From a virus, in the IMG/VR virus record IMGVR_UViG_3300013132_002633, positions 1 to 64,000 of that record: a stretch of DNA of 64,000 nucleotides; one strand, given 5' to 3'. This document shows positions 7,654-30,215 of this stretch, piece after piece. The position numbers and the translations under genes were made by a program. The notes under the pieces are model-generated. The model did not search any database and was not told the origin of the DNA. It saw nothing but the letters and a program-made list of their open reading frames with translations. The first letter of the stretch is position 1. Each line of letters begins with the position of its first letter.

Positions 7654-10152
7654 ATGGCTGATAGTAAACTCACACCTCAAGATCTTGAATCGTTAAGTGA
7701 ATTTTTACGATTACAAGAAAAGTTAAGAGCTGAAACAAAAGAATATTCTGAGTCTTGGTCAGATGTGCAACGTAAAATTGTAGCTAGCATAAATCCTGTC
7801 ACCAATTTGCAAAAAAAGATAAACAAATTAAGTGAAGAAAGAATAAAAATTGAAGGAAAATTGAAAGATTTAGAACAGTATAAAACGATTATACACGACG
7901 ACGTTTATAAAGAGATACAGAAATCTTATATACAAGAGTTAAAAAATAACACCCAAAAACAAAAATCTTTAGAGAAACAAAACTCAATGCATCTATTGAT
8001 ATATGATACCGTTAAAAAAATGGTAGAATTGTATAATCAATATGATAAACTGTTATCAGATAACGCTAAACTACAAGGTACTAATAAAGATGAAATAGAT
8101 GCACAGTATAGTGCTATACAAAAAATAAATAAATCAACTGATGTAAACAGACTTTCTAATCAAGAAATATTAGCAACTATAACCGAAATAAGAAAAGAAT
8201 ATTCTGCTATTGCCGGAGAAGCTCTCGTAAAAATTGCAGATGGATCCGCGGCAATTGCGAGATCAACTGGATTGAGTGTTACAGAATCTTCTAAATTCTT
8301 TCAAACTATGGCTGAAATTGCTGGCGCCAGTTTACAGTCTCAAAAGAACATGGAAGGTGTTGCTAATCTTGCTGCAAAAGCCGCTGGAGTACCGCTTGGA
8401 GTTGTAATAAAAGATGTAGCAAATGCGAGTGCTAATGTTAGATTGATTTTTAAAGGAAACACCACTGAATTAATAAAACAAGCAGCTGAGTTAAGAAAAA
8501 TTGGAAGTAGTTTGGATTCAGCTGCAAAATCAGCAGAATCATTATTGAATTTTGAATCTTCGGTTGGTGCTGAGTTAAAAGCAAGTGCTTTACTTGGTAA
8601 AAATGTAAATTTCAATGAATCTCGTAGATTGTTTTTCGCCGGTAAAACAGCAGAAGCTGAAAAAGCTTTACAAACTGAATTGCGAAAAGTAGGCGACTTA
8701 GATAAACTAAAATATTTCCAAAAGAAAGCATTGGCTGAACTCACCGGTAAGGATTTTAGTGAGTTGCAAAAAATGGAAACAACCCGAAAGAGTTTGCTTG
8801 AAGCTGAACAAGAATTTCCAGAATTAGCACAACAAAGAAGAGATGCTGAGGCTGAATTTGCAAAATATCAAAAAAGTGCAAGTGAAAAAAGAAAAGAAGA
8901 ATTAGCAACATTGTTGAAAAAACAAGTTGCTGAAACTCAATCTAAACAATTAGAAGAAGCCCGTGCAGAAGCATTAAATAATATTGGTAAGATATTAAAA
9001 CCTGTGGGAGATATAATAACAAAAATACAATTATTGATATTAAGATTTATAGGCGGTATAACGAATTTTAGTGATAATTGGGGAAAAATAACGGTTGCGG
9101 TCGTCGCCGGTGCTATATCAATATACGGTGCATTTAAACTATTAAAATCTGGATTAACCGGATTATTAGAATTTGCTGCTAAAGGATTAGATAAGTTAGG
9201 AGAATCTCTTGGTTCAGGTATAGGAAAAGGATTAAAACAATTAGGTGGTGGTATAAGATCCATGGCAAATTCATTAGACAAGGTTAAACCTGCTCAAATA
9301 GTAAAAATGGCAGTAATACTTGGTATAATAACATTGGCGGTGTTTGGTCTAGCTAAAGCCTTTAGTATGTTAAAAGATGTTAGTGGCGAACAAATGATGG
9401 CATTTACAGCTTCGTTGGTTATATTAGGAGCTACATTATTAATATTTGGAGCCGCTCTAATATTTCCTCCACTTCAACTTGGTTTCATCTTATTTGCTGC
9501 TGGAATGTTAGCAATTGGTTTGGCTGCTATGGAATTTGGGTTCGCTATGAAAATGGCGGGGCCAGCTGTAGAATCTATAGGCGAAACATTAACGTCGTTA
9601 GCTGACACAATAGGTGGAGTAATTGTAAAAGCATTTGACACGATGTTGTCGGTCTTTACGGCACTACCAGAGGTCATTGCTAGTGTAGCAGTTGGATTGG
9701 TTACAATTGCAAATATTGGATTTTTTAAATTGTCCAGAGCCGCGGCCGGTATAGCTGCATTATCACTTTCTATCAAATCGTTAGGTGAAAATCTGGTGAA
9801 TTTACAAGTAGATAGATTTGCTGGTTTAGTATCGCAAGTAATGATGTTAAGTGAATCTGCTGAAGGTCTGGCATTTGCGGTAAATTCGTTAAAAGAACTA
9901 TCTGGAATAGAGTTGCCTAAATTAGACATGGATCTCAATGGATCTGAAAATTTACTTAAAATGTCAGAGTTAAAAGAAAAGCAAACAAATGAGTTGAAAA
10001 CAGGAATGGATGAAGTGGTCAAAAAACTAGATACACTCACATCATTAATGGCTAACGGTGGTATTGCTGTAAATATTGATGGTCAATTGGTATCAAGACA
10101 ACTAGCAACGACGAGATATCGATCTGGAGGATTTGCGCAAGCAACATCTTGA
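7654..10152 (+). CDS. Tape measure protein
   Basis: 832 residues, the longest alpha-helical protein of the tail module. Residues ~1-170 are coiled coil (LEQYKTIIHDDVYKEIQK and neighbours); ~180-290 are Ala/Ser-rich; ~300-450 again charged helices; ~470-700 hold several strongly hydrophobic helices (VAVVAGAISIYGAFKLL, AVILGIITLAVFGLAKAF and LVILGATLLIFGAALIF). Long coiled coil plus central hydrophobic segments is the hallmark of tape measure proteins, which fill the tail tube, set its length and enter the host membrane. T4 gp29 is 590 aa; at ~832 aa a longer tail is expected. Its position directly after gp26/gp51 fits the usual chaperone-tape measure order. Confidence 0.75.
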   Translation: MADSKLTPQDLESLSEFLRLQEKLRAETKEYSESWSDVQRKIVASINPVTNLQKKINKLSEERIKIEGKLKDLEQYKTIIHDDVYKEIQKSYIQELKNNTQKQKSLEKQNSMHLLIYDTVKKMVELYNQYDKLLSDNAKLQGTNKDEIDAQYSAIQKINKSTDVNRLSNQEILATITEIRKEYSAIAGEALVKIADGSAAIARSTGLSVTESSKFFQTMAEIAGASLQSQKNMEGVANLAAKAAGVPLGVVIKDVANASANVRLIFKGNTTELIKQAAELRKIGSSLDSAAKSAESLLNFESSVGAELKASALLGKNVNFNESRRLFFAGKTAEAEKALQTELRKVGDLDKLKYFQKKALAELTGKDFSELQKMETTRKSLLEAEQEFPELAQQRRDAEAEFAKYQKSASEKRKEELATLLKKQVAETQSKQLEEARAEALNNIGKILKPVGDIITKIQLLILRFIGGITNFSDNWGKITVAVVAGAISIYGAFKLLKSGLTGLLEFAAKGLDKLGESLGSGIGKGLKQLGGGIRSMANSLDKVKPAQIVKMAVILGIITLAVFGLAKAFSMLKDVSGEQMMAFTASLVILGATLLIFGAALIFPPLQLGFILFAAGMLAIGLAAMEFGFAMKMAGPAVESIGETLTSLADTIGGVIVKAFDTMLSVFTALPEVIASVAVGLVTIANIGFFKLSRAAAGIAALSLSIKSLGENLVNLQVDRFAGLVSQVMMLSESAEGLAFAVNSLKELSGIELPKLDMDLNGSENLLKMSELKEKQTNELKTGMDEVVKKLDTLTSLMANGGIAVNIDGQLVSRQLATTRYRSGGFAQATS

Positions 10153-21405: not shown

Positions 21406-21439
21406 AAAGCCGGTGGAGTTTTTATACCCCACCGGCTTT
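21406..21439 (+). terminator. GC-rich 11-bp hairpin between gp32 and UvsX
   Basis: Perfect stem 21406-21416 with 21429-21439, core GCCGGTGG/CCACCGGC, 12-base loop. The T-tail is only TTT plus AT-rich sequence, so it may attenuate rather than end transcription. It ends 15 bases before the UvsX ATG at 21455. Confidence 0.65.
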
Positions 21440-21454
21440 CTAGTTATATACACT

Positions 21455-21748
21455 ATGGCAAAAAAATCTACAGTTTCAAAAGAATCTACACAACGAGATG
21501 AATTAATTGAGTTGTTGGCAAGTGAGCTTAATAAAGCAAATAAAGAAGGTGGCAAGATTGCATACTTTTTAGATGAACAAGAAAATCCAGCAGAAATTAG
21601 TGATTGGATTAGCACAGGATCATCTATATTGGATTTAGCAATCAGTAACCGTCCGCACGGTGGTCTTCCAGTTGGCAAGATGGTTGAATTCAACGGATTG
21701 GAAGGATGCGTAACCGAAGACACTATAATAAAAGTTATTATTGAATAA
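21455..21748 (+). CDS. uvsX: UvsX (RecA-type recombinase) fragment 1: N-extein plus 13-residue N-intein
   Basis: Residues 1-84 are the N-terminal part of a UvsX/RecA recombinase (SDWISTGSSILDLAISNRPH, GGLPVGKMVEFNGLEG). At C85 (21707) an intein begins inside the Walker A loop, between EG and TGKS of the extein. Only 13 intein residues, CVTEDTIIKVIIE, are encoded before TAA at 21746. The rest of this intein is on the fragment starting at 21826. Start chosen at ATG 21455, giving MAKKST; an upstream in-frame start would run through the hairpin. Read with a -1 shift before the TAA the frame stays open into fragment 2, so the break is either an atypical split intein or a one-base deletion. Confidence 0.82.
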   Translation: MAKKSTVSKESTQRDELIELLASELNKANKEGGKIAYFLDEQENPAEISDWISTGSSILDLAISNRPHGGLPVGKMVEFNGLEGCVTEDTIIKVIIE

Positions 21749-22203
21749 AAATCTCCAATCCAACTATTAAAAGAAAAAAATCTGATGATAGATTTAGAAA
21801 ATTTGGAAAAATTAAAAAGAAATTTATGAATAGAATAGTAAAAGAAATAAAAGTTGGTGATGTTTTATCTCTCTTAGCAGAAGGTAAAAATATTAAAGTA
21901 TTGACTCGTAACAACGAGTATGTAAACATTACAAATTATGTAGATAAAGGATTATTAGATACATTTAAAGTTACATTAGATAATGGATTTACAATAAAGG
22001 TCTCTAGAGAACATAAATTTTTTACAAATGTTGGTTGGGTAGAACAGAGAAATTTAATTAAAGAAAATCACAAAATCTTTTGTGAAGATGGTGAATATCG
22101 TACAATACAAGATATAGAATATATTGGAAAACACAAAATTGTAGATATCACCGTTGATTCAGATGATCATTCGTATTTTGGAAATGGTATGCTTAATCAT
22201 AAT
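21707..22203 (+). other. UvsX split intein 1 (Walker A site), no endonuclease
   Basis: N-intein 21707-21745 (13 aa, Cys1) and C-intein 21826-22203 (126 aa, ending GNGMLNHN, +1 residue Thr). Block B is VSREHKF, block F DDHSYFGNG. The gap is only 77 bases and holds no endonuclease. Confidence 0.75.
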
Positions 22204-22689
22204 ACAGGAAAATCATTGGTATCTGCACATGTTGTTGCTGATACTCAAAGAAAAGGTGGAGTTGCAGTTGTCATTGATACTGAAAACGCAGCTGCTCCTG
22301 AGTTCTGGAAAAGTTTGGGTGTAGATCTATCTAAGTTACTGTATGTTCAATGTGAAACCGTTGAAGATATTTTTGCTCAGATGGAAAAGATGATCGCAAT
22401 TGTTCGTAAGAGCAACAAAGATCGCATTCTTACAATCATTGTTGATTCTGTAGCAGCAGCATCAACTAAGGCAGAACTAGAAAGTGATCATGGTAAAGAT
22501 GGTTATGCAACTGGTAAGAGTATTATTATCAGCAAGGCGATGCGTAAGATTACTACCATGATTGGTCGTCAAAAGGTTCTTACTGTGTTTACCAATCAAC
22601 TTCGTCAAAATATAAATGCTATGGCATTTGGTGATAAATATTGTGTTGATCCGTATACAACAAAAATAAAAATTAGATATAAAATTTAA
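21826..22689 (+). CDS. uvsX: UvsX fragment 2: C-intein 1, middle extein, N-intein 2
   Basis: 287 residues. 1-126 are the C-terminal part of intein 1 ending in HN; 127-272 (22204-22641) are the UvsX ATPase core, starting TGKSLVSAHVVADT (rest of Walker A), with VAVVIDTENAAAP, the Walker B strand LTIIVDSVAAAS and VFTNQLRQNINAM; at C273 (22642) a second intein starts after FGDKY and stops after 15 residues (CVDPYTTKIKIRYKI). The middle piece therefore carries intein parts at both ends, and the two inteins must not cross-react or it would circularise. Extein codons are CGT/CTT-rich, intein codons AGA/TTA-rich. Confidence 0.85.
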   Translation: MNRIVKEIKVGDVLSLLAEGKNIKVLTRNNEYVNITNYVDKGLLDTFKVTLDNGFTIKVSREHKFFTNVGWVEQRNLIKENHKIFCEDGEYRTIQDIEYIGKHKIVDITVDSDDHSYFGNGMLNHNTGKSLVSAHVVADTQRKGGVAVVIDTENAAAPEFWKSLGVDLSKLLYVQCETVEDIFAQMEKMIAIVRKSNKDRILTIIVDSVAAASTKAELESDHGKDGYATGKSIIISKAMRKITTMIGRQKVLTVFTNQLRQNINAMAFGDKYCVDPYTTKIKIRYKI

Positions 22690-22697
22690 TTTTTCCT

Positions 22698-22741
22698 CCT
22701 CCTACTATACACTTATACTTAAATAAGTCCTTAGTAGGAGG
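22698..22741 (+). promoter_or_regulatory. Hairpin burying the endonuclease Shine-Dalgarno
   Basis: Outer stem CCTCCTACTA (22698-22707) with TAGTAGGAGG (22732-22741), three-base symmetric internal loop, inner stem ACTTAT (22711-22716) with ATAAGT (22723-22728), six-base loop. The right arm contains the perfect AGGAGG ribosome binding site four bases before the ATG at 22746, so folding would block translation of the endonuclease. Confidence 0.75.
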
Positions 22742-22745
22742 TAAT

Positions 22746-23783
22746 ATGATTTTACTAGAATATTTAGATATAAATTTAACGTGGAAGAAAAATAAACCAA
22801 TTTTTAAATTTATAATTAAAACGGAAAAAAGAAAAACTAAAGAATTTCCTCTTAAATGTATTGTAAATAACAAAAGAATATCTAAAACAGGCAAAGAATA
22901 TTATATACATTATTTGGGAGAAATTGGAGAAGAAGTATATAACGAGAGAAAAAAGTTATATAGCATGTACAGTCTTATACCATTTTATATTAAAACGTAT
23001 AATAAAGATGTTGAGAAATTGAACGAATATCTTAAAATATTGAAAAGTAATAATGTGAACGGCATTAAAAAATTTTATTTGTCCGAAAAGGGAGCTGAAG
23101 CTAGAAAAATACAATCGGAATGGGGAATTAAACATTCAATGGAAATCTCATCTAGAAATAGAAAATTATGGAAAGAAGATGAGTATGTTAACAAAGTCAA
23201 ATCAAATCAAGATTATTCTTATGAAAATCATGGGAAGAAAATTTCCGATTTCTATAAAAATCAAAAAAATAAAGATTTCATAAAAAGTGTCATGAACTCC
23301 CCGAAGAGAATCGAAAAAATATCGTTATCATCTAAAAAAATGTGGGAACATGCAAAATCATTTAATAAAGAGATGTATTATAGAATGATAAATTCGCAAA
23401 AACATAAAAATTTTGAATTAAATGGATATAAACTTAATAATATCGAATATTTGGTAGGTAGTATATTAAACAATTTTTCTATAAATTGGGAATACGAAAA
23501 AATTTTTCAGTTTAAAACAACTTGTTATTTGCCCGATTTTTATGTAAGATCTAAAAATCTAATCATAGAATGTTATGGTGATTATTGGCACGCCAATCCT
23601 AAATATTTAAACGAAAACGATTTTACACATAAAAATAGATCTGTGAAAGATGTATGGGCATACGACTCTAGAAAAAAAGAAATTTTTGAAAACAATGAAT
23701 TTTCTTACTTATTTTTCTGGGAAAATGATATTCTAAATAACATAGATGGTATAAAAAAAACAATATATGAATACACAAGATAA
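22746..23783 (+). CDS. Homing endonuclease (Vsr/EDxHD-type) in UvsX intein 2 break
   Basis: 345 residues. The N-terminal ~200 residues are Lys-rich helical DNA-binding sequence. The nuclease core is in the last 110 residues: LIIECYGDYWHANPKY with the E-x-x-G-D-x-W-H-x-N-P signature, then VWAYDSRKKEIFE and LFFWENDI, as in the endonuclease family reported with 'fractured' phage genes. It would cut unbroken uvsX alleles and spread the split intein cassette. It has the only perfect AGGAGG ribosome binding site I saw in the window, buried in a hairpin. The last 17 bases overlap the start of UvsX fragment 3, suggesting translational coupling. Confidence 0.8.
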   Translation: MILLEYLDINLTWKKNKPIFKFIIKTEKRKTKEFPLKCIVNNKRISKTGKEYYIHYLGEIGEEVYNERKKLYSMYSLIPFYIKTYNKDVEKLNEYLKILKSNNVNGIKKFYLSEKGAEARKIQSEWGIKHSMEISSRNRKLWKEDEYVNKVKSNQDYSYENHGKKISDFYKNQKNKDFIKSVMNSPKRIEKISLSSKKMWEHAKSFNKEMYYRMINSQKHKNFELNGYKLNNIEYLVGSILNNFSINWEYEKIFQFKTTCYLPDFYVRSKNLIIECYGDYWHANPKYLNENDFTHKNRSVKDVWAYDSRKKEIFENNEFSYLFFWENDILNNIDGIKKTIYEYTR

Positions 23784-24609
23784 ATACATAGAAGAAGAAT
23801 TAACAATTGCCGAGTTTGCGGAAAGATTTTTAGGAATGAATAATTATTCATCTGAAAACGTTGAAGAAATAGATATATCGGATATGGATATAGAAATATA
23901 TGGTCGAGATTTAAAGTCCTCACAGGATTGCTATAATAAAATTAATAAATTTATAATCAAAACTCCATCGGAATATCATTACAGTGATGGTATACTGAAA
24001 GGCACAGATTTACATCGAATTATTGAAGATGGAGTTGAAATTCACTTGAAAGATCACAACGATTTCAAAAGGGTTAATGAACCAATAAAAGTTGTAGATT
24101 TCGATATTGAAAATACACACAATTATTATGCCAATGGTCGATTAAATCATAATACCGTAAGCGGTGGCAAGGCTTTGGCTTATCACTGTAGTGTTCGTGT
24201 TCGTTTGAACAACACTGGTAAGTTGAAAAAGGCAGAAGAAGTTATTGGCAACGAGTGTAAAGCAGTTGTTATCAAAAACAGAATGGGTCCGCCACAACGT
24301 CAAGCTAACTTTGAAATCTACTTTGACAGCGGTATTGCTGACTATAGTAGTTGGATCAAAGTATTGAAGGAGAATAACATTATCAAACAAGGTGGTGCGT
24401 ATTACTCTTACAGAAAAGAAGACGGTAGTGAATGGAAGTTCCAATCCAAAGACTTTGTATCTACCATGCAATCTGACAAGGTTTTAAAAGAAGAATTATA
24501 TCTTAAGATCTGTGATGCGGTTGTTATGAAATACAAAGATCCTAACAGTCAAATCGTTGAGGATGCTACTGTTGATACTGATGAAGAAACTGCTGGAAAC
24601 GACGAATAA
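23767..24609 (+). CDS. uvsX: UvsX fragment 3: C-intein 2 plus C-extein
   Basis: 280 residues. 1-129 are the C-terminal part of intein 2, ending NGRLNHN; 130-280 (from 24154) are the C-terminal UvsX extein, starting TVSGGKALAYHCSVRVRL, which completes the L2 region, and ending in an acidic tail (EDATVDTDEETAGNDE). The three exteins add to 84 + 146 + 151 = 381 residues; T4 UvsX has 391. The ATG lies inside the last codons of the endonuclease gene (17-base overlap). The stop overlaps the next ATG by one base (TAATG). Confidence 0.85.
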   Translation: MNTQDKYIEEELTIAEFAERFLGMNNYSSENVEEIDISDMDIEIYGRDLKSSQDCYNKINKFIIKTPSEYHYSDGILKGTDLHRIIEDGVEIHLKDHNDFKRVNEPIKVVDFDIENTHNYYANGRLNHNTVSGGKALAYHCSVRVRLNNTGKLKKAEEVIGNECKAVVIKNRMGPPQRQANFEIYFDSGIADYSSWIKVLKENNIIKQGGAYYSYRKEDGSEWKFQSKDFVSTMQSDKVLKEELYLKICDAVVMKYKDPNSQIVEDATVDTDEETAGNDE

Positions 24610-25682
24610 TGAATGAGTTAACACCAATCGAACGAAAGAAATTGTTCTCAATGTTCGAGAATATAGAAAGAGATTCCGTCATAACAGGACTTAAAAAATC
24701 GCTAAATAGTGATGTTCTGTTGGTTGACGGATTGTAGTTAAATACCTATATTCGTAGTTTCATGGCGATACCATCTTTAAATGACGATGGACTTCACACG
24801 GGTGGTATCGCCGGTTTTCTTAAAAGTGTAGGATACGCAATAAAATTATTGAGTCCTACCAGAGTTATAATTGTATTTGACGGAAAAGGTGGGTCTCAAA
24901 AAAGAAGAAAGATTTATCCAGACTACAAAAATGGACGTAGAACTGATATTAAATTAAACAGATCATATGATGATCTATCAAATTCGGTTATTGAAAAAGC
25001 CAATTTCAAAAAAGAATTGATACGTACTGTAAATTACCTCGACGTGTTGCCTGTTACTGTAATGGCTATTGATAATATCGAAGCAGATGATACGATTGCA
25101 TATCTAGCTAAACAAACATTCAAAGACAGTAAGGTTACAATTATGTCTACGGACAAAGATTTTTTACAGTTAGCGAGTGATCAAATAAATATTTGGAGTC
25201 CTGTAAAGAAAAAAATATTTGGTTGTAAAGAAATTATTGATGAATATGGAATAACATGTAAAAACTTCATATTTTACAGAATAATGGAAGGAGACGTAAG
25301 CGATAATATTACAGGTTTGGATGGCGTGGGATTAAAACGTGTTACACAAGCATTTCCTTTTTTGGGTGAAGATCCACAGGCGTGTTTACAACAAATATAT
25401 AATTATAGTGAAAATAATCGTAGCAGATATAAGATTTACGAGCGAGTATTAGACAATAAATTATTATTGGAACGTAATTATGAACTCATGCAATTACATA
25501 ATACACAAATTCAATCCTTTACTCAATTGAGAATTGAAGAGATTATAAATAAACCAGTTCCAAAAATTGATAAAATGAGTTTTAGTAAACTGATTACAGA
25601 AGATAAAATGTGGTCAAATATACCTAATTACATGTACTGGTTAAATGAGTGTTTTGGAAAATTAAATTCATTTGTTGAATAA
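24609..25682 (+). CDS. rnh: RNase H / 5'-3' flap exonuclease (T4 Rnh-like) interrupted by an in-frame amber codon
   Basis: Read from ATG 24609 the frame gives MNELTPIERKKLFSMFENI... LLVDGL, then TAG at 24735-24737, then LNTYIRSF and the ATG at 24762 in the same frame. Residues LLVDG carry the first metal-binding Asp of this nuclease family (expected DGLNTYIRSF, so the TAG comes with a 6-base insertion). The rest is a clear FEN/PIN nuclease: IVFDGKGGSQKRRKIYPDYK, NIEADDTIAYLA, MSTDKDFLQL, and the helix-hairpin-helix MEGDVSDNITGLDGVG. T4 RNase H removes primer RNA. A protein started at 24762 would be 306 residues but lack the first catalytic Asp. Either readthrough occurs, or the gene is damaged or mis-sequenced. 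Confidence 0.75.
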
Positions 25683-25793
25683 TCAACAACTTCACATAAA
25701 ACTATAAGTTACAAATTGTAAAATGTTTACAACACACGTTGTATAGATTAGAATGCATAGACTATAGACTGAGTAGATAAAATAATATAAAAT

Positions 25794-26612
25794 ATGACTG
25801 AAAAAATTATAATAGATTCACTTCGTAAGTATGGATTGGACTTTCAAATAAAGTGCATAACGTGTCTGTTATCAGATCGTAGCTTTATGGAGAGAATTCA
25901 AGATATTGTTGAGGCTGAATTTTTTGAAAGTGATGCACAAAAATGGATTCTTAAAGAAAGTGTAAAATATTTTAATGAATATAAAGATCTTCCAACACTA
26001 ACTGTATTCAAGGTTAAAGTAGATACTGTTGAAAACGAGGTTCTTAAAAAATCTATTATAGATAGCCTAAAATTGGTTTATCAAAAGTTAAATGATAACG
26101 ATTTGAAATTTGTTAAAGAACAATTTTTGGAATTTTGTAAGAACCAAAAATTAAAGAATGCTATATTTGAAAGTGCTGATTTATTGGAAACAGGTCAATA
26201 TGACAAAATAAAGATGGTGGTTGATACCGCCATGAAAGCTGGTATGGAAAGAAATATTGGTCATGAATACGATGTAGAAATCGAAAAGCGTATGAGTATC
26301 ATGGCTCGTAACACAATAAAAACCAACTGGACTGAAATCGATACTATCATGGACGGTGGTCTTGGGCCAGGTGAACTTGGAATTGTTGTTGCGCCAGCAG
26401 GAATTGGCAAATGTATTGGTCCAAATACCGAAATTGAGATCGAATATCACGAATTTGGTATTGAAACATTATCAAGTTGCGGAAAATCATTTATAATGTG
26501 GATTAATCCGTTTGAAAAATATAAAATAGACGATGTTGAATTACTAGGTTGGCAAGTTGAAAATGTTTTTTATGAAATTGAAAAAATAAAACAAGAAAAA
26601 ACTAAAAATTAA
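25794..26612 (+). CDS. 41: gp41 (DnaB-type helicase) fragment 1: N-extein plus N-intein 1
   Basis: 272 residues. 1-206 are the N-terminal and linker part of a T4 gp41-like replicative helicase, ending in the start of Walker A, GPGELGIVVAPAGIGK. At C207 (26412) an intein begins (CIGPNTEIEIEY) and runs 66 residues to TAA at 26610; only the first dozen residues look like intein core, the rest (INPFEKYKIDDVELLGWQ) is an unusual tail. The intein continues on the fragment starting 27391. Preceded by a 110-base gap without a convincing promoter. Forms the hexameric replication helicase after splicing. Confidence 0.85.
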   Translation: MTEKIIIDSLRKYGLDFQIKCITCLLSDRSFMERIQDIVEAEFFESDAQKWILKESVKYFNEYKDLPTLTVFKVKVDTVENEVLKKSIIDSLKLVYQKLNDNDLKFVKEQFLEFCKNQKLKNAIFESADLLETGQYDKIKMVVDTAMKAGMERNIGHEYDVEIEKRMSIMARNTIKTNWTEIDTIMDGGLGPGELGIVVAPAGIGKCIGPNTEIEIEYHEFGIETLSSCGKSFIMWINPFEKYKIDDVELLGWQVENVFYEIEKIKQEKTKN

Positions 26613-26614
26613 CG

Positions 26615-26642
26615 TTGACCGGCATCGGTAAGTATTTATAAT
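26615..26642 (+). promoter_or_regulatory. Promoter TTGACC-N16-TATAAT overlapping a TATTTATA box
   Basis: TTGACC at 26615-26620 and TATAAT at 26637-26642, with TATTTATA at 26633-26640 overlapping the -10. A TATTTATT at 26671-26678 lies four bases before the endonuclease ATG. The endonuclease could be made both early and late. Confidence 0.5.
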
Positions 26643-26681
26643 AAATTTCATTTTTATGACATATGAGATCTATTTATTGAC

Positions 26682-27407
26682 ATGAGTATTAAAAAAGAAT
26701 TTTCAATATATCGATACCAATACTGGATGCAGAAATATGGTTTGACCGAAACCGACGCTAAAAATAAAGTCACATCAATTCAAAGAGAAAATGCGTTAAA
26801 ATCATCAAAGAAGTTCACGCCAGATCGATCTTATTTAAAAAAAGAATATTGGATTAAAAAGAAAGGATATACTGAGTCAGATGCTGTCAAAAAAATATCT
26901 GAGATTCAATCGGAGTATTCAAAAAAATCCAGTAGATTCACAGGCAAAATTAGAACAATTGAGAGCAAAATTAAAATTTCAAACTCATTAAAATCTAAAA
27001 TTGCCAAGATAGGCGGTGGCAATTGGGCAAAGCATTTTGGTCAATTTAATGGCAACTCTAAAATTGAAAAAGAATTTTATTTTTATATAAAAAATAATAT
27101 AAACACAAACGTTCAGGCAAATGTTCCTATATCAAATTATATAGTTGATGTTTTACATGAAACAAAAATAGTAGAATTTTATGGCGATTTTTGGCACGCA
27201 AATCCTAAATTTTATGAATGTGATGACCTTATAAAATCGTTTAGTATCAATAAAACTGCAAATGAAATATGGATCAGTGATAATCGTAGAATTGACATAT
27301 TACAAAAAATGGGGTATGATGTATTGATAATCTGGGAAAATGATTGGAAAAAAAACAAACAAGAGTGTATAGAAAAAATAAAAAAACATTATGAAATTAT
27401 TAATTAA
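26682..27407 (+). CDS. Homing endonuclease (Vsr/EDxHD-type) in gp41 intein 1 break
   Basis: 241 residues. The N-terminus has two similar ~40-residue units (YWMQKYGLTETDAKNKVTSI and YWIKKKGYTESDAVKKISEI), likely DNA-recognition modules. The nuclease core is IVEFYGDFWHANPKF followed by VLIIWENDW, the same order as in the other two intein-break endonucleases. Its last 17 bases overlap the start of gp41 fragment 2, exactly as in the UvsX locus. It is smaller than its two partners because it has fewer recognition repeats. Confidence 0.8.
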   Translation: MSIKKEFSIYRYQYWMQKYGLTETDAKNKVTSIQRENALKSSKKFTPDRSYLKKEYWIKKKGYTESDAVKKISEIQSEYSKKSSRFTGKIRTIESKIKISNSLKSKIAKIGGGNWAKHFGQFNGNSKIEKEFYFYIKNNINTNVQANVPISNYIVDVLHETKIVEFYGDFWHANPKFYECDDLIKSFSINKTANEIWISDNRRIDILQKMGYDVLIIWENDWKKNKQECIEKIKKHYEIIN

Positions 27408-28503
27408 AAATGTCCGTGAAAATATTAAAATAAAAGATTTATTTGATAGATTAAAAATTAAAGATGAAGAAAATGCGATGGAACAGTTAAAATTTCCATT
27501 AAAAGTAAATACACCATTTGGTTATAAAAAAATTGTGACAGCGTTTCGTACTGAAAAACAAAAAACAATAACTTCTTATTTTGGTAACAATAAAACATTA
27601 AAGACTTCTGGAAAACATAGATTAAAAGTAAACGGGAGTTGGAAATTCGTAGATGAAATAAACTCTGGAGAGCTAGTAGAAACTGAAGTTGGTACCACAA
27701 AATTAGTATCAAAAAAAGAAGGTCGAGACGAGATATTATATGATATATCGGTTGATGAAGTGCATTGTTATTATAGCAATGGCATTCTTTCCCATAATTC
27801 ATGGGTACTTGCCAAGTTGGGAGCTGAAGCAATGAAACAAGGTAAAAATGTTCTTCACTTCACACTAGAATTAAATGAAAACTATGTTGGATTACGATAT
27901 GATAGTTGTTTTACTGGAATTGATTTCCAAAATATCAGAAACAACATTGACATTGTAAAACAAAAGATTTCAGAAGTGCCTGGTAAACTTGTTATCAAGT
28001 ATTTTCCATTGAAGACGGTATCAGCTCATAGCTTAAAATCTCATACTGAAAGATTGGCTGTATTGGGTACAAAAATTGACATGATCGTTGTAGATTATGC
28101 AGATATTCTTCGTCCAGTACACAGTGATCGTAATAGCAACAGTTATAGTGAGGCTGGTGGTATTTACGAAGAGCTAAGAAGTATCGCGGGTGAACTTCAA
28201 ATTCCAATTTGGAGTGCAAGTCAAGCGAATAGGTGTCATTTGGTTGATGATCAAGTACTTACAAATCGAGGAACGATTAGACTAGGAGATTTGACTATTA
28301 ACGATTTGGTTTTGACTCACAAAGGACTTAAAAAAGTAACAAAAATTTTTCCAACCGAAACGCAGCCTGTTTATAAAATTAAATTAAGATCTGGTAAAGA
28401 GATTAATATATCTGCAAATCATAGAGTTCCAACCGCCGACGGCAGATTAAAATCATTAGAAACTGGGTTGTCTGTAGGCGACAAGTTATTTACAAAAAAA
28501 TAA
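27391..28503 (+). CDS. 41: gp41 fragment 2: C-intein 1, middle extein, N-intein 2
   Basis: 370 residues. 1-136 are C-intein 1, with VNTPFGYKKIVTAF and final HN; 137-281 (27799-28233) are helicase core, from SWVLAKLGAEAMKQGKNVLH through Walker B MIVVDYADILRP to WSASQANR; 282-370 are N-intein 2 (89 residues from C282 at 28234), which resembles the well-known gp41-8/gp41-1 type split inteins (ETQPVYKIKLRSGKEI, SANHRVPTADG, GLSVGDKL). As with UvsX fragment 2, it has intein parts at both ends, demanding orthogonal pairing. Insertion sites are the P-loop and the QxNR motif. Confidence 0.87.
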   Translation: MKLLIKNVRENIKIKDLFDRLKIKDEENAMEQLKFPLKVNTPFGYKKIVTAFRTEKQKTITSYFGNNKTLKTSGKHRLKVNGSWKFVDEINSGELVETEVGTTKLVSKKEGRDEILYDISVDEVHCYYSNGILSHNSWVLAKLGAEAMKQGKNVLHFTLELNENYVGLRYDSCFTGIDFQNIRNNIDIVKQKISEVPGKLVIKYFPLKTVSAHSLKSHTERLAVLGTKIDMIVVDYADILRPVHSDRNSNSYSEAGGIYEELRSIAGELQIPIWSASQANRCHLVDDQVLTNRGTIRLGDLTINDLVLTHKGLKKVTKIFPTETQPVYKIKLRSGKEINISANHRVPTADGRLKSLETGLSVGDKLFTKK

Positions 28504-29885
28504 TATTTTGTGATGCAGACCATATATTTAATATTATATGATTAACACTAAATTTAGAGATATTGTTCATTTAATGAACCAGAAGCCGTTCCGTGATTTT
28601 AAAAATGATTTAAGCGAATGCGTAATCAGTAACTTAAAAAAGGTCATATTAGAGTTTGATAAAAAATATATCTTGAATAACAAGAAAGAAGTCATACAGA
28701 ACATGATTAGATATAATGTTGATGGTGATTGGGTAGAGAGATTAAAAAATGGTGATAAATATAAAAAAGACGGATTTTCCATGGAAGCATTGATTGTGAA
28801 ATATGGCGAATCTGTTGCAAAGTTAATATCAGATGAAAGAAACGATAAAGTTGCGATTACCAAGGATAAATATATACGAAACCATAGTGAACATGAATGG
28901 GAAGAATTATGTAAAAAAAAGAGAAGTAATTTAGGACTTGATGGTTATATTAAAAAATATGGACATGAAGAAGGTTTAAAAAAATGGAACAATTACTTAA
29001 AAAAATGGAAAATTGGCATTGAAAAGAAAAAAGCTGATGGTTGGAAAAATGGTTTAACGATTGAGGAATATCAAACTAGATATGGAATAAAAGAAGGATA
29101 TGAACGTTGGAGAAAAAGAATAAATAGTAGAAAATATACTCTTTCTTTAGAAGGATATATTAATAAACACGGTGGTGAGTTGGGAAAAAAGTTGTGGGGT
29201 GAATATTGTAAATCAAATAATAAAACGTCGTTGGAGTCTTTTATCAAAAGATACGGTGAGAAGTTTGGAAAAGAAAAGTACGTTTTGATGCTAGAAAAGA
29301 TCTTTTGTTATTTAAAAAACCGAAGGTGTTATAGCATAATTTCCCAAGAATTATTTAAAAATGTAGCAGATAAATTGGAAAATAAAAATGATATAAAATA
29401 TGCAATACAAAATGGAGAGCAATATTTTTTTATTAATGAAAATTTTTGTAAAGGTATGTTTGTCGATTTTAAATATGGAAACATAATTATAGAATTTTAT
29501 GGAGATTTTTGGCATGCTAATCCATCTAAATACAAAGAAAACGATATAGTAAAACTTCCTAATAACAATAAATTGGCTAATAAAGTTTGGAGTGAAGATA
29601 AAGAAAAAATTGATTGGTTGGTAAAACGAGGATACAATGTAATGATTGTATGGGAAAGTGATTATTTGAAAAATAAAAATGAAGTGGTACAGAGTTGTTT
29701 AAATTTCATAAAACAGAACTATAAATAATATGACAGAAAAAATTACAAAAGAACACGATTTAAATCCTAATGAGTTTGAGTTAGATGAAATAGTCAACAT
29801 AGAGTGTATAGGTGATCATGAAACGGTTGACATTACTGTGGATGACACGCATATGTTTTTTGCAAATGGTGTATATACACACAAT
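28234..29885 (+). other. gp41 split intein 2 (QANR site, gp41-8-like) with endonuclease in the break
   Basis: N-intein 28234-28500 (89 aa) and C-intein 29730-29885 (52 aa, ending NGVYTHN, +1 Ser). Sizes match the canonical ~88 + ~46 residue gp41 split inteins. Extein junction SQANR | SAADEDI. Confidence 0.88.
28538..29728 (+). CDS. Homing endonuclease (Vsr/EDxHD-type) in gp41 intein 2 break
   Basis: 396 residues. Residues ~85-260 hold about five units of the type [LS]xxYIKKYGxExGxxxW (DGYIKKYGHEEGLKKW, EGYINKHGGELGKKLW, ESFIKRYGEKFGKEKY), probably reading DNA in a modular way. The C-terminal core is IIIEFYGDFWHANPSKY and MIVWESDYL. Stop at 29726-29728 is one base before the ATG of gp41 fragment 3 (TAATATG), so reinitiation is likely. 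Its recognition target is expected to be the intein-free QANR-coding sequence of gp41. Confidence 0.8.
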   Translation: MINTKFRDIVHLMNQKPFRDFKNDLSECVISNLKKVILEFDKKYILNNKKEVIQNMIRYNVDGDWVERLKNGDKYKKDGFSMEALIVKYGESVAKLISDERNDKVAITKDKYIRNHSEHEWEELCKKKRSNLGLDGYIKKYGHEEGLKKWNNYLKKWKIGIEKKKADGWKNGLTIEEYQTRYGIKEGYERWRKRINSRKYTLSLEGYINKHGGELGKKLWGEYCKSNNKTSLESFIKRYGEKFGKEKYVLMLEKIFCYLKNRRCYSIISQELFKNVADKLENKNDIKYAIQNGEQYFFINENFCKGMFVDFKYGNIIIEFYGDFWHANPSKYKENDIVKLPNNNKLANKVWSEDKEKIDWLVKRGYNVMIVWESDYLKNKNEVVQSCLNFIKQNYK

Positions 29886-30215
29886 TCAGCAGCAGACGAA
29901 GACATTGTTATGGCACATCACGCTGCCGACAGTTATCGTAAAATCATGACTGCCGATTTCGTAATGAGTGTGTCTCGCAAGACAAACGATAAAGTAAGTA
30001 ATACAGCACGATTCCACATTATTAAAAATCGTTTCGGACCAGATGGTTTGACATTCCCAAGCAAAATGAATGCTGGCTGTGGTCAGATTGAGATTTATGG
30101 TGAAAACAGTCGTGAAGGTCTGGCTGTGTTGAATGAAATGATGGACGGTGAGAACAATGTGAAAAAAGTCTTAAAAAATAAATGGAACGCACATAATGCT
30201 AATGACGATGAATAA
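29730..30215 (+). CDS. 41: gp41 fragment 3: C-intein 2 plus C-extein
   Basis: 161 residues. 1-52 are C-intein 2 (VDITVDDTHMFFANGVYTHN); 53-161 are the C-terminal helicase extein, starting SAADEDIVMAHHAADSYRK, with VMSVSRKTNDKVSNTARFHI and KNRFGPDGLTF typical of the RecA-fold end of gp41. Exteins add to 206 + 145 + 109 = 460 residues; T4 gp41 has 475. CGT/GCC codons again set the extein apart from the intein part. Trans-splicing with fragments 1 and 2 is required for a working helicase. Confidence 0.87.
   Translation: MTEKITKEHDLNPNEFELDEIVNIECIGDHETVDITVDDTHMFFANGVYTHNSAADEDIVMAHHAADSYRKIMTADFVMSVSRKTNDKVSNTARFHIIKNRFGPDGLTFPSKMNAGCGQIEIYGENSREGLAVLNEMMDGENNVKKVLKNKWNAHNANDDE

Follow-up and report, generated by a model that had tools for sequence, protein, structure and literature searches.

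The genes for the recombinase UvsX and the replicative helicase gp41 are each broken into three pieces in the viral DNA analysed here, a stretch of 64,000 nucleotides that we call the window (positions 1 to 64,000 of IMG/VR record IMGVR_UViG_3300013132_002633, which is itself a fragment of 76,496 bp). Every break falls inside an intein, at the P-loop (site u1) or the L2 site (u2) of UvsX and at the P-loop (g1) or the QANR site (g2) of gp41. It is very likely that four mobile split inteins have invaded uvsX and gp41, that trans-splicing restores both proteins and that homing endonucleases (HENs) drive homing.

In the mechanism we propose, the four inteins would have separately invaded four conserved active-site positions of the two enzymes. 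At each position a stop codon would break the gene inside the intein, a small nuclease gene would occupy the gap or would have done so once, and the second intein half would restart at a new ATG that overlaps or adjoins the last codons of that nuclease gene. From six separately made fragments, matching halves would pair, form a HINT domain and splice, yielding full-length UvsX and gp41 (381 and 460 amino acids, aa). Empty alleles in co-infecting phages would be cut by the site-specific nucleases, and recombination repair would copy the element in. Even after decay of the nuclease the intein would stay, because the gene cannot work without splicing.

UvsX is encoded in three extein pieces of 84, 146 and 151 aa (381 aa) and gp41 in three of 206, 145 and 109 aa (460 aa), and the joined exteins are colinear with uninterrupted homologues. 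The breaks, marked by slashes, lie at GLEG/TGKS (P-loop) and GDKY/TVSGGK (L2) in UvsX, and at GIGK/S (P-loop) and QANR/S in gp41. The UvsX pieces gave Pfam matches to RecA and gp41 to DnaB_C, and three fragments matched intein or HINT domains. A preliminary description of the window had reported six extein fragments adding up to 381 and 460 residues, four interruptions and three HEN genes within the breaks; all of these were recovered, the sums being exact and the HEN genes lying at 22746-23783, 26682-27407 and 28538-29728. It had also placed uvsX and gp41 side by side, but a 5'-3' exonuclease gene (24609-25682) sits between them. The order uvsX-exonuclease-gp41 is also found, with intact genes, in Microcystis phage Mel-JY01, where the exonuclease is annotated 'DNA polymerase I'. 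The features are the following, IntN and IntC being the N- and C-terminal intein halves:

21455-21706, + strand: UvsX N-extein, 84 aa, ending ...NGLEG within the P-loop; weak Pfam match to the N-terminal part of RecA
21707-21748, + strand: u1 IntN, 13 aa, CVTEDTIIKVIIE, then TAA; all 19 split u1 clusters stop after 13-14 aa
21749-21829, + strand: u1 HEN remnant, open frame ending MIDLENLEKLKRNL and a TGA that overlaps the IntC start (ATGA); matches the C-termini of full u1 HENs in L157, L180 and L182
21826-22203, + strand: u1 IntC, 126 aa, ending ...NGMLNHN; matches to PDB inteins, HINT fold model with VidaL as top Foldseek match
22204-22641, + strand: UvsX middle extein, 146 aa, TGKS...GDKY; Pfam RecA
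22642-22689, + strand: u2 IntN, 15 aa, CVDPYTTKIKIRYKI, then TAA
22746-23783, + strand: HEN1, 345 aa, with a GDYWHANP motif; DUF559, phrog_22677, homologues at the same site
23767-24153, + strand: u2 IntC, 129 aa, ending ...NGRLNHN; its start overlaps HEN1 by 17 nt
24154-24609, + strand: UvsX C-extein, 151 aa, TVSGGKALAY...; Pfam RecA
24609-25682, + strand: 5'-3' exonuclease (T4 RNase H/FEN type) with an in-frame TAG at 24735-24737; outside the intein system
25794-26411, + strand: gp41 N-extein, 206 aa, ending in the P-loop GIGK; homologues intact at that point
26412-26612, + strand: g1 IntN, 66 aa, block A and a conserved tail of about 50 aa; tail kept in 15 split clusters
26682-27407, + strand: HEN2, 241 aa, with a predicted Vsr-like catalytic domain; Vsr profile match and I-Bth0305I structure match
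27391-27798, + strand: g1 IntC, 136 aa, ending ...NGILSHN; its start overlaps HEN2 by 17 nt
27799-28233, + strand: gp41 middle extein, 145 aa, SWVLAK...SASQANR; DnaB_C
28234-28503, + strand: g2 IntN, 89 aa, canonical split; matches the gp41-1 intein in PDB
28538-29728, + strand: HEN3, 396 aa; phrog_22677 (E 4e-32), the family common to HEN1 and HEN2
29730-29885, + strand: g2 IntC, 52 aa, ending ...NGVYTHN
29886-30215, + strand: gp41 C-extein, 109 aa, beginning SAADEDIVMAHH; homologues intact at the break

All four inteins carry Cys1, a block-B TxxH-type motif, a C-terminal His-Asn and a Ser or Thr at +1, and these residues are kept in relatives; indeed, alignments of the relatives gave the class 1 intein residue set at all four sites. 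We considered whether the fragments might instead assemble non-covalently into working enzymes without any splicing, the intein pieces acting as docking domains only. Functional split phage enzymes of this kind have been reported (split NrdA of phage Aeh1 and split gp43 of phage 25; PMC2988022), and purifying selection on the fragments would be equally expected. This is nevertheless quite improbable: the full splicing catalytic set, needless for docking, is present in every copy, both P-loops are cut between invariant residues, and homologous continuous inteins occupy the same sites. From the sequences we infer instead that splicing would be covalent and the pairing of halves faithful. Two points do weigh against trans-splicing as we propose it: the tail of about 50 aa on the g1 IntN has no role assigned, and, the record being a fragment, an intact copy of uvsX or gp41 could lie elsewhere. 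No second recA or dnaB copy was found in the 76-kb partial record, nor was there any intein signal beyond u1, u2, g1 and g2 over its 76,496 bp.

Related viral loci (labelled L008, L161 and so on) were collected by eight scans of viral contigs and further fetches, giving 297 loci in 139 clusters, 78 of which could be read at all four intein sites. Among these 78, the number of interrupted sites was none in 43 clusters, one in 18, two in 10, three in 4 and four in 3; the sample is biased toward intein carriers, intein halves having been among the queries, and these counts are not frequencies in nature. A metagenome search for loci with zero to four breaks had been suggested in advance, and every one of the five states was found. 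The four-break state, which had been called exceptional, is rare (3/78) but not unique: besides the window it is found in clusters L161/L235 and L180/L246, the latter with a HEN-sized gene in all four gaps. All four sites exist as empty, continuous-intein and split alleles, with the split at the same residue. Continuous inteins are present at u1 in L160, L187, L190 and L195, at u2 in L189, L195 and L258, at g1 in L219 and L263, and at g2 in L252/L253 and others, and the closest relative over both genes, L008 (93-95% at the aa level), is empty at 4/4 sites.

This distribution bears on a possible role of the split state as a regulatory switch, sensitive to redox, temperature or stoichiometry, that would time recombination against replication and make the inteins more than selfish elements. 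In favour of it, the two proteins share a pathway, and each of the four breaks hits a functional site, leaving the enzyme inactive until spliced. We regard such a role as unlikely, however, as the largest class of clusters (43/78) is empty at all four sites; since most close relatives are without breaks, there is no general regulatory need, and the breaks are distributed among relatives as a mobile element would be. An analysis of co-conversion tracts beside the insertion sites was suggestive at the right flank of g1, which scored 0.73-0.87 between the window and most intein bearers and 0.67-0.77 between the window and empty alleles, with L180 as an exception, but was too noisy to use.

The broken genes are under purifying selection. 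Between the window and L008, the ratio of non-synonymous to synonymous change (dN/dS) of the exteins was 0.039 for uvsX and 0.023 for gp41, and the amino-acid changes on the two branches (window:L008) were 13:11, 9:14 and 8:14 with three outgroup pairs, meaning that the window exteins evolve no faster than those of the empty L008. The intein halves and the HENs also gave dN/dS values that were mostly within 0.03-0.34. The fractured genes are thus functional, given constrained exteins, no excess change on the window branch and constrained intein halves and HENs. An AT-rich metagenomic contig with several in-frame stops could in principle owe its breaks to sequencing or assembly errors, or carry dying pseudogenes. 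We rejected this explanation as extremely improbable: independent contigs have their stops at the same positions and show the same gene overlaps of 17 nt, and the extein dN/dS of 0.02-0.04, together with a window branch free of excess change, is not that of a pseudogene. A frameshifted continuous intein at u1 was rejected as well, since 19 split clusters share the codon at which the stop occurs and 8 of them have a HEN-sized gap.

The N-half of u1 is 13 aa long in 16 of the 19 split clusters and 14 aa in the other three, and that of u2 is 15 aa in 6/8. An AlphaFold2 model of the natural continuous u1 homologue of L187 gave a HINT fold (predicted local distance difference test, pLDDT, 94.8) in which residue 13, the u1 split point, falls in a turn between strands 7-12 and 15-20. 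Foldseek returned VidaL (PDB 6vgv) as the best match to the modelled u1 intein (template modelling score, TM, 0.88). On this model, u1 is an atypically (S1) split intein, cut after an early strand and left with a short IntN; u2, by its 15-aa N-half, also appears to be atypically split. VidaL is a naturally, atypically S1-split intein with a 16-aa N-half (PMC13014065); like u1 it is split after strand beta2, whereas the two are only about 22% identical and the IntN of u1 has 13 aa. The PolB16 OarG intein, with an IntN of 15 aa called the shortest characterised (PMC10189870), resembles u1 in its S1 split, very short IntN and metagenomic origin, but is Ser1/Ser+1 where u1 is Cys1/Thr+1. The predicted 13-aa N-half of u1 is therefore shorter than the shortest characterised one.

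In the g1 intein, too, the cut lies close to the N end: its IntC begins at the point equivalent to the S1 split, and its IntN, 45-73 aa long across split clusters, contains block A and the tail. Because the continuous homologues L219 and L263 carry the same segment, the tail is old intein sequence and not read-through junk; together with block A it gave a dN/dS of 0.11-0.26. The g2 intein has a canonical split (89 + 52 aa) and is clearly related by profile (E 9e-20) to the gp41-1 split intein (PDB 6qaz), which has the same canonical split; its homologues in our set also occur as continuous inteins of 129-132 aa. The short uvsX IntN, the g1 cut near the N end with its tail and the deletion of the u1 HEN (see below) had all been absent from the preliminary description.

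Two observations on continuous inteins may be added. In that of L187 at u1 (8953-9363) the 13-aa N-half runs straight into the Met that starts the C-half elsewhere, reading ...VIIE/M..., with GAA directly before the former ATG, and L187 groups with the split copies L235 and L194 (99/98 support); it is probably a re-fused split intein. At the gp41 P-loop, L236, L245, L262, L279, L283 and L291 carry other, larger continuous inteins of about 260-365 aa, which apparently start with Ala, Ser or Glu and not with Cys, possibly reflecting class 3 inteins or a boundary offset.

HEN genes occupy three of the four gaps (u2, g1 and g2). HEN2 matched the Vsr profile (E 3e-5) and, by Foldseek, I-Bth0305I (E 4e-3), HEN1 alone matched Vsr weakly (E 0.17), and HEN1-3 all belong to PHROG 22677. 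The catalytic domain of HEN2 can thus be assigned as Vsr-like (EDxHD type), by sequence to Vsr and by fold to I-Bth0305I, and HEN1 and HEN3 would be linked to it through phrog_22677; their nuclease activity is presumed. In contrast to I-Bth0305I and Vsr, the HENs here have N-terminal regions that differ by site. By eye, the u1 HENs of relatives resemble another PD-(D/E)xK branch.

At u1 only 77 bp separate the stop of the N-half from the ATG of the C-half, and a HEN remnant of only 25 codons is left. Full u1 HENs of about 360-430 aa are present in L157, L180, L182, L185, L186, L189 and L192, and partial remnants in L161, L156 and L158. The end of the window stub, MIDLENLEKLKRNL and stop, is clearly homologous to the end ...IIIDTLNLEKLKRNII and stop in L157; the u1 HEN of the window has been deleted, with its C-terminal stub left behind. 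The stop of the stub or HEN overlaps the C-half start as ATGA (stop at +4) in 10/19 u1 loci, stubs included, and at g1 the overlap between HEN and C-half is 17 nt in 9/15 loci and 4 nt in 6/15. Ribosomes may thus reach the C-half by termination-reinitiation, the stub being kept for that purpose, and we infer that such translational coupling could explain why free-standing nuclease genes are tolerated in broken genes.

Fractured genes, in which a split intein marks the break and a free-standing Vsr-like endonuclease gene lies between the halves, were reportedly described by Dassa et al. in 2009 (NAR 37:2560; cited in PMC13014065), and phage replication genes including gp41 are said to be among them. 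The preliminary description had assigned the window to this kind, and the assignment holds: each of the four sites has empty, continuous and split alleles, the catalytic residues are kept and the exteins are under purifying selection. Extein pieces are fused to intein halves at 4/4 sites, intact alleles exist in relatives (43 clusters), and a free-standing HEN is present at u2, g1 and g2, u1 having the remnant only and its full counterpart in L157, L180 and L182. Particular to the window would be four breaks spread over two genes of the same operon, with an atypical split in at least two and the loss of the HEN from one gap. Both fractured genes and inteins with an atypical split are already known kinds; as far as could be checked, what is new is the four-break operon with a zero-to-four allelic series, the family of 13-aa N-halves and the coupled HEN stub. 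The replication system would probably need four orthogonal protein trans-splicing reactions, and because relatives range from no break to four, one can trace allele by allele how split inteins arise, spread, lose their nuclease and re-fuse. The 13-aa N-half family (19 clusters) would be easily synthesised and useful for protein labelling.

No phage isolate with close relatives of the four window inteins was found, and a host search, in which genome contigs were scanned with the u1 intein, gave remote matches only. In Shigella phage ESh36 (L306, ON528746.1, 1861-4841; T4-like, GenBank UNVERIFIED), a canonical split intein interrupts gp41 elsewhere, at SDIAE/SAGLPA, with a nuclease-like gene in the gap, and the annotation gives two primase/helicase genes and a hypothetical protein; ESh36 is a possible laboratory model for a fractured gp41. 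In L161 the split intein at u2 is closely followed downstream by a group I intron (RF00028, 54 bits; L161:5684-6100), so that its uvsX carries two split inteins and one intron; no group I intron was found in the window.

The exonuclease gene between uvsX and gp41 has an interruption of another sort. Where relatives have the active-site motif VDGLNTYIRSF, the window reads VDGL-TAG-LNTYIRSF. A Leu-stop-Leu arrangement at this position was found in 14 loci of six clusters, with all three stop codons: TTG TAG TTA in the window, L008 and L010 types, CTC TAA CTT in L009, CTG TGA CTG in L231 and CTT TAG CTC in L183. Both Leu codons can always be read by one isoacceptor; the chance of such matching is about 0.001-0.003 over four types, by rough arithmetic from the Leu codon usage of the window. 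The seven codons after the stop differ between the window and L009 by six synonymous changes and one non-synonymous change, so they are constrained as protein. On a tree with long branches, Leu-stop-Leu requires at least four changes of state. Identity between L010 and L012 is mostly 93-98% nearby but drops to 63% over the 60 nt that immediately precede the insert, whereas L010 and L008 share 97% there; the insert and about 60 nt upstream therefore travel as a short cassette. No conserved RNA structure was found at the site.

The simplest reading is a +6 stop-hop that would restore VDGLN: the peptidyl-tRNA on the first Leu codon would jump the stop and land on the second Leu codon, which that tRNA also reads, and 9 nt would thus give one Leu. 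Readthrough or gene fission could also account for the stop. According to a 2016 review, stop-hops are known from synthetic constructs, with no natural case known (PMC5009743); this site is a candidate natural stop-hop. We put forward only tentatively that no gene of the replication operon is decoded in one continuous run: four trans-splicing inteins would rebuild UvsX and gp41, and an in-frame stop-hop would yield the exonuclease. Finally, a 14-bp GC-rich inverted repeat at 21406-21439, 15 nt upstream of the uvsX start codon, is terminator-like on the minus strand.

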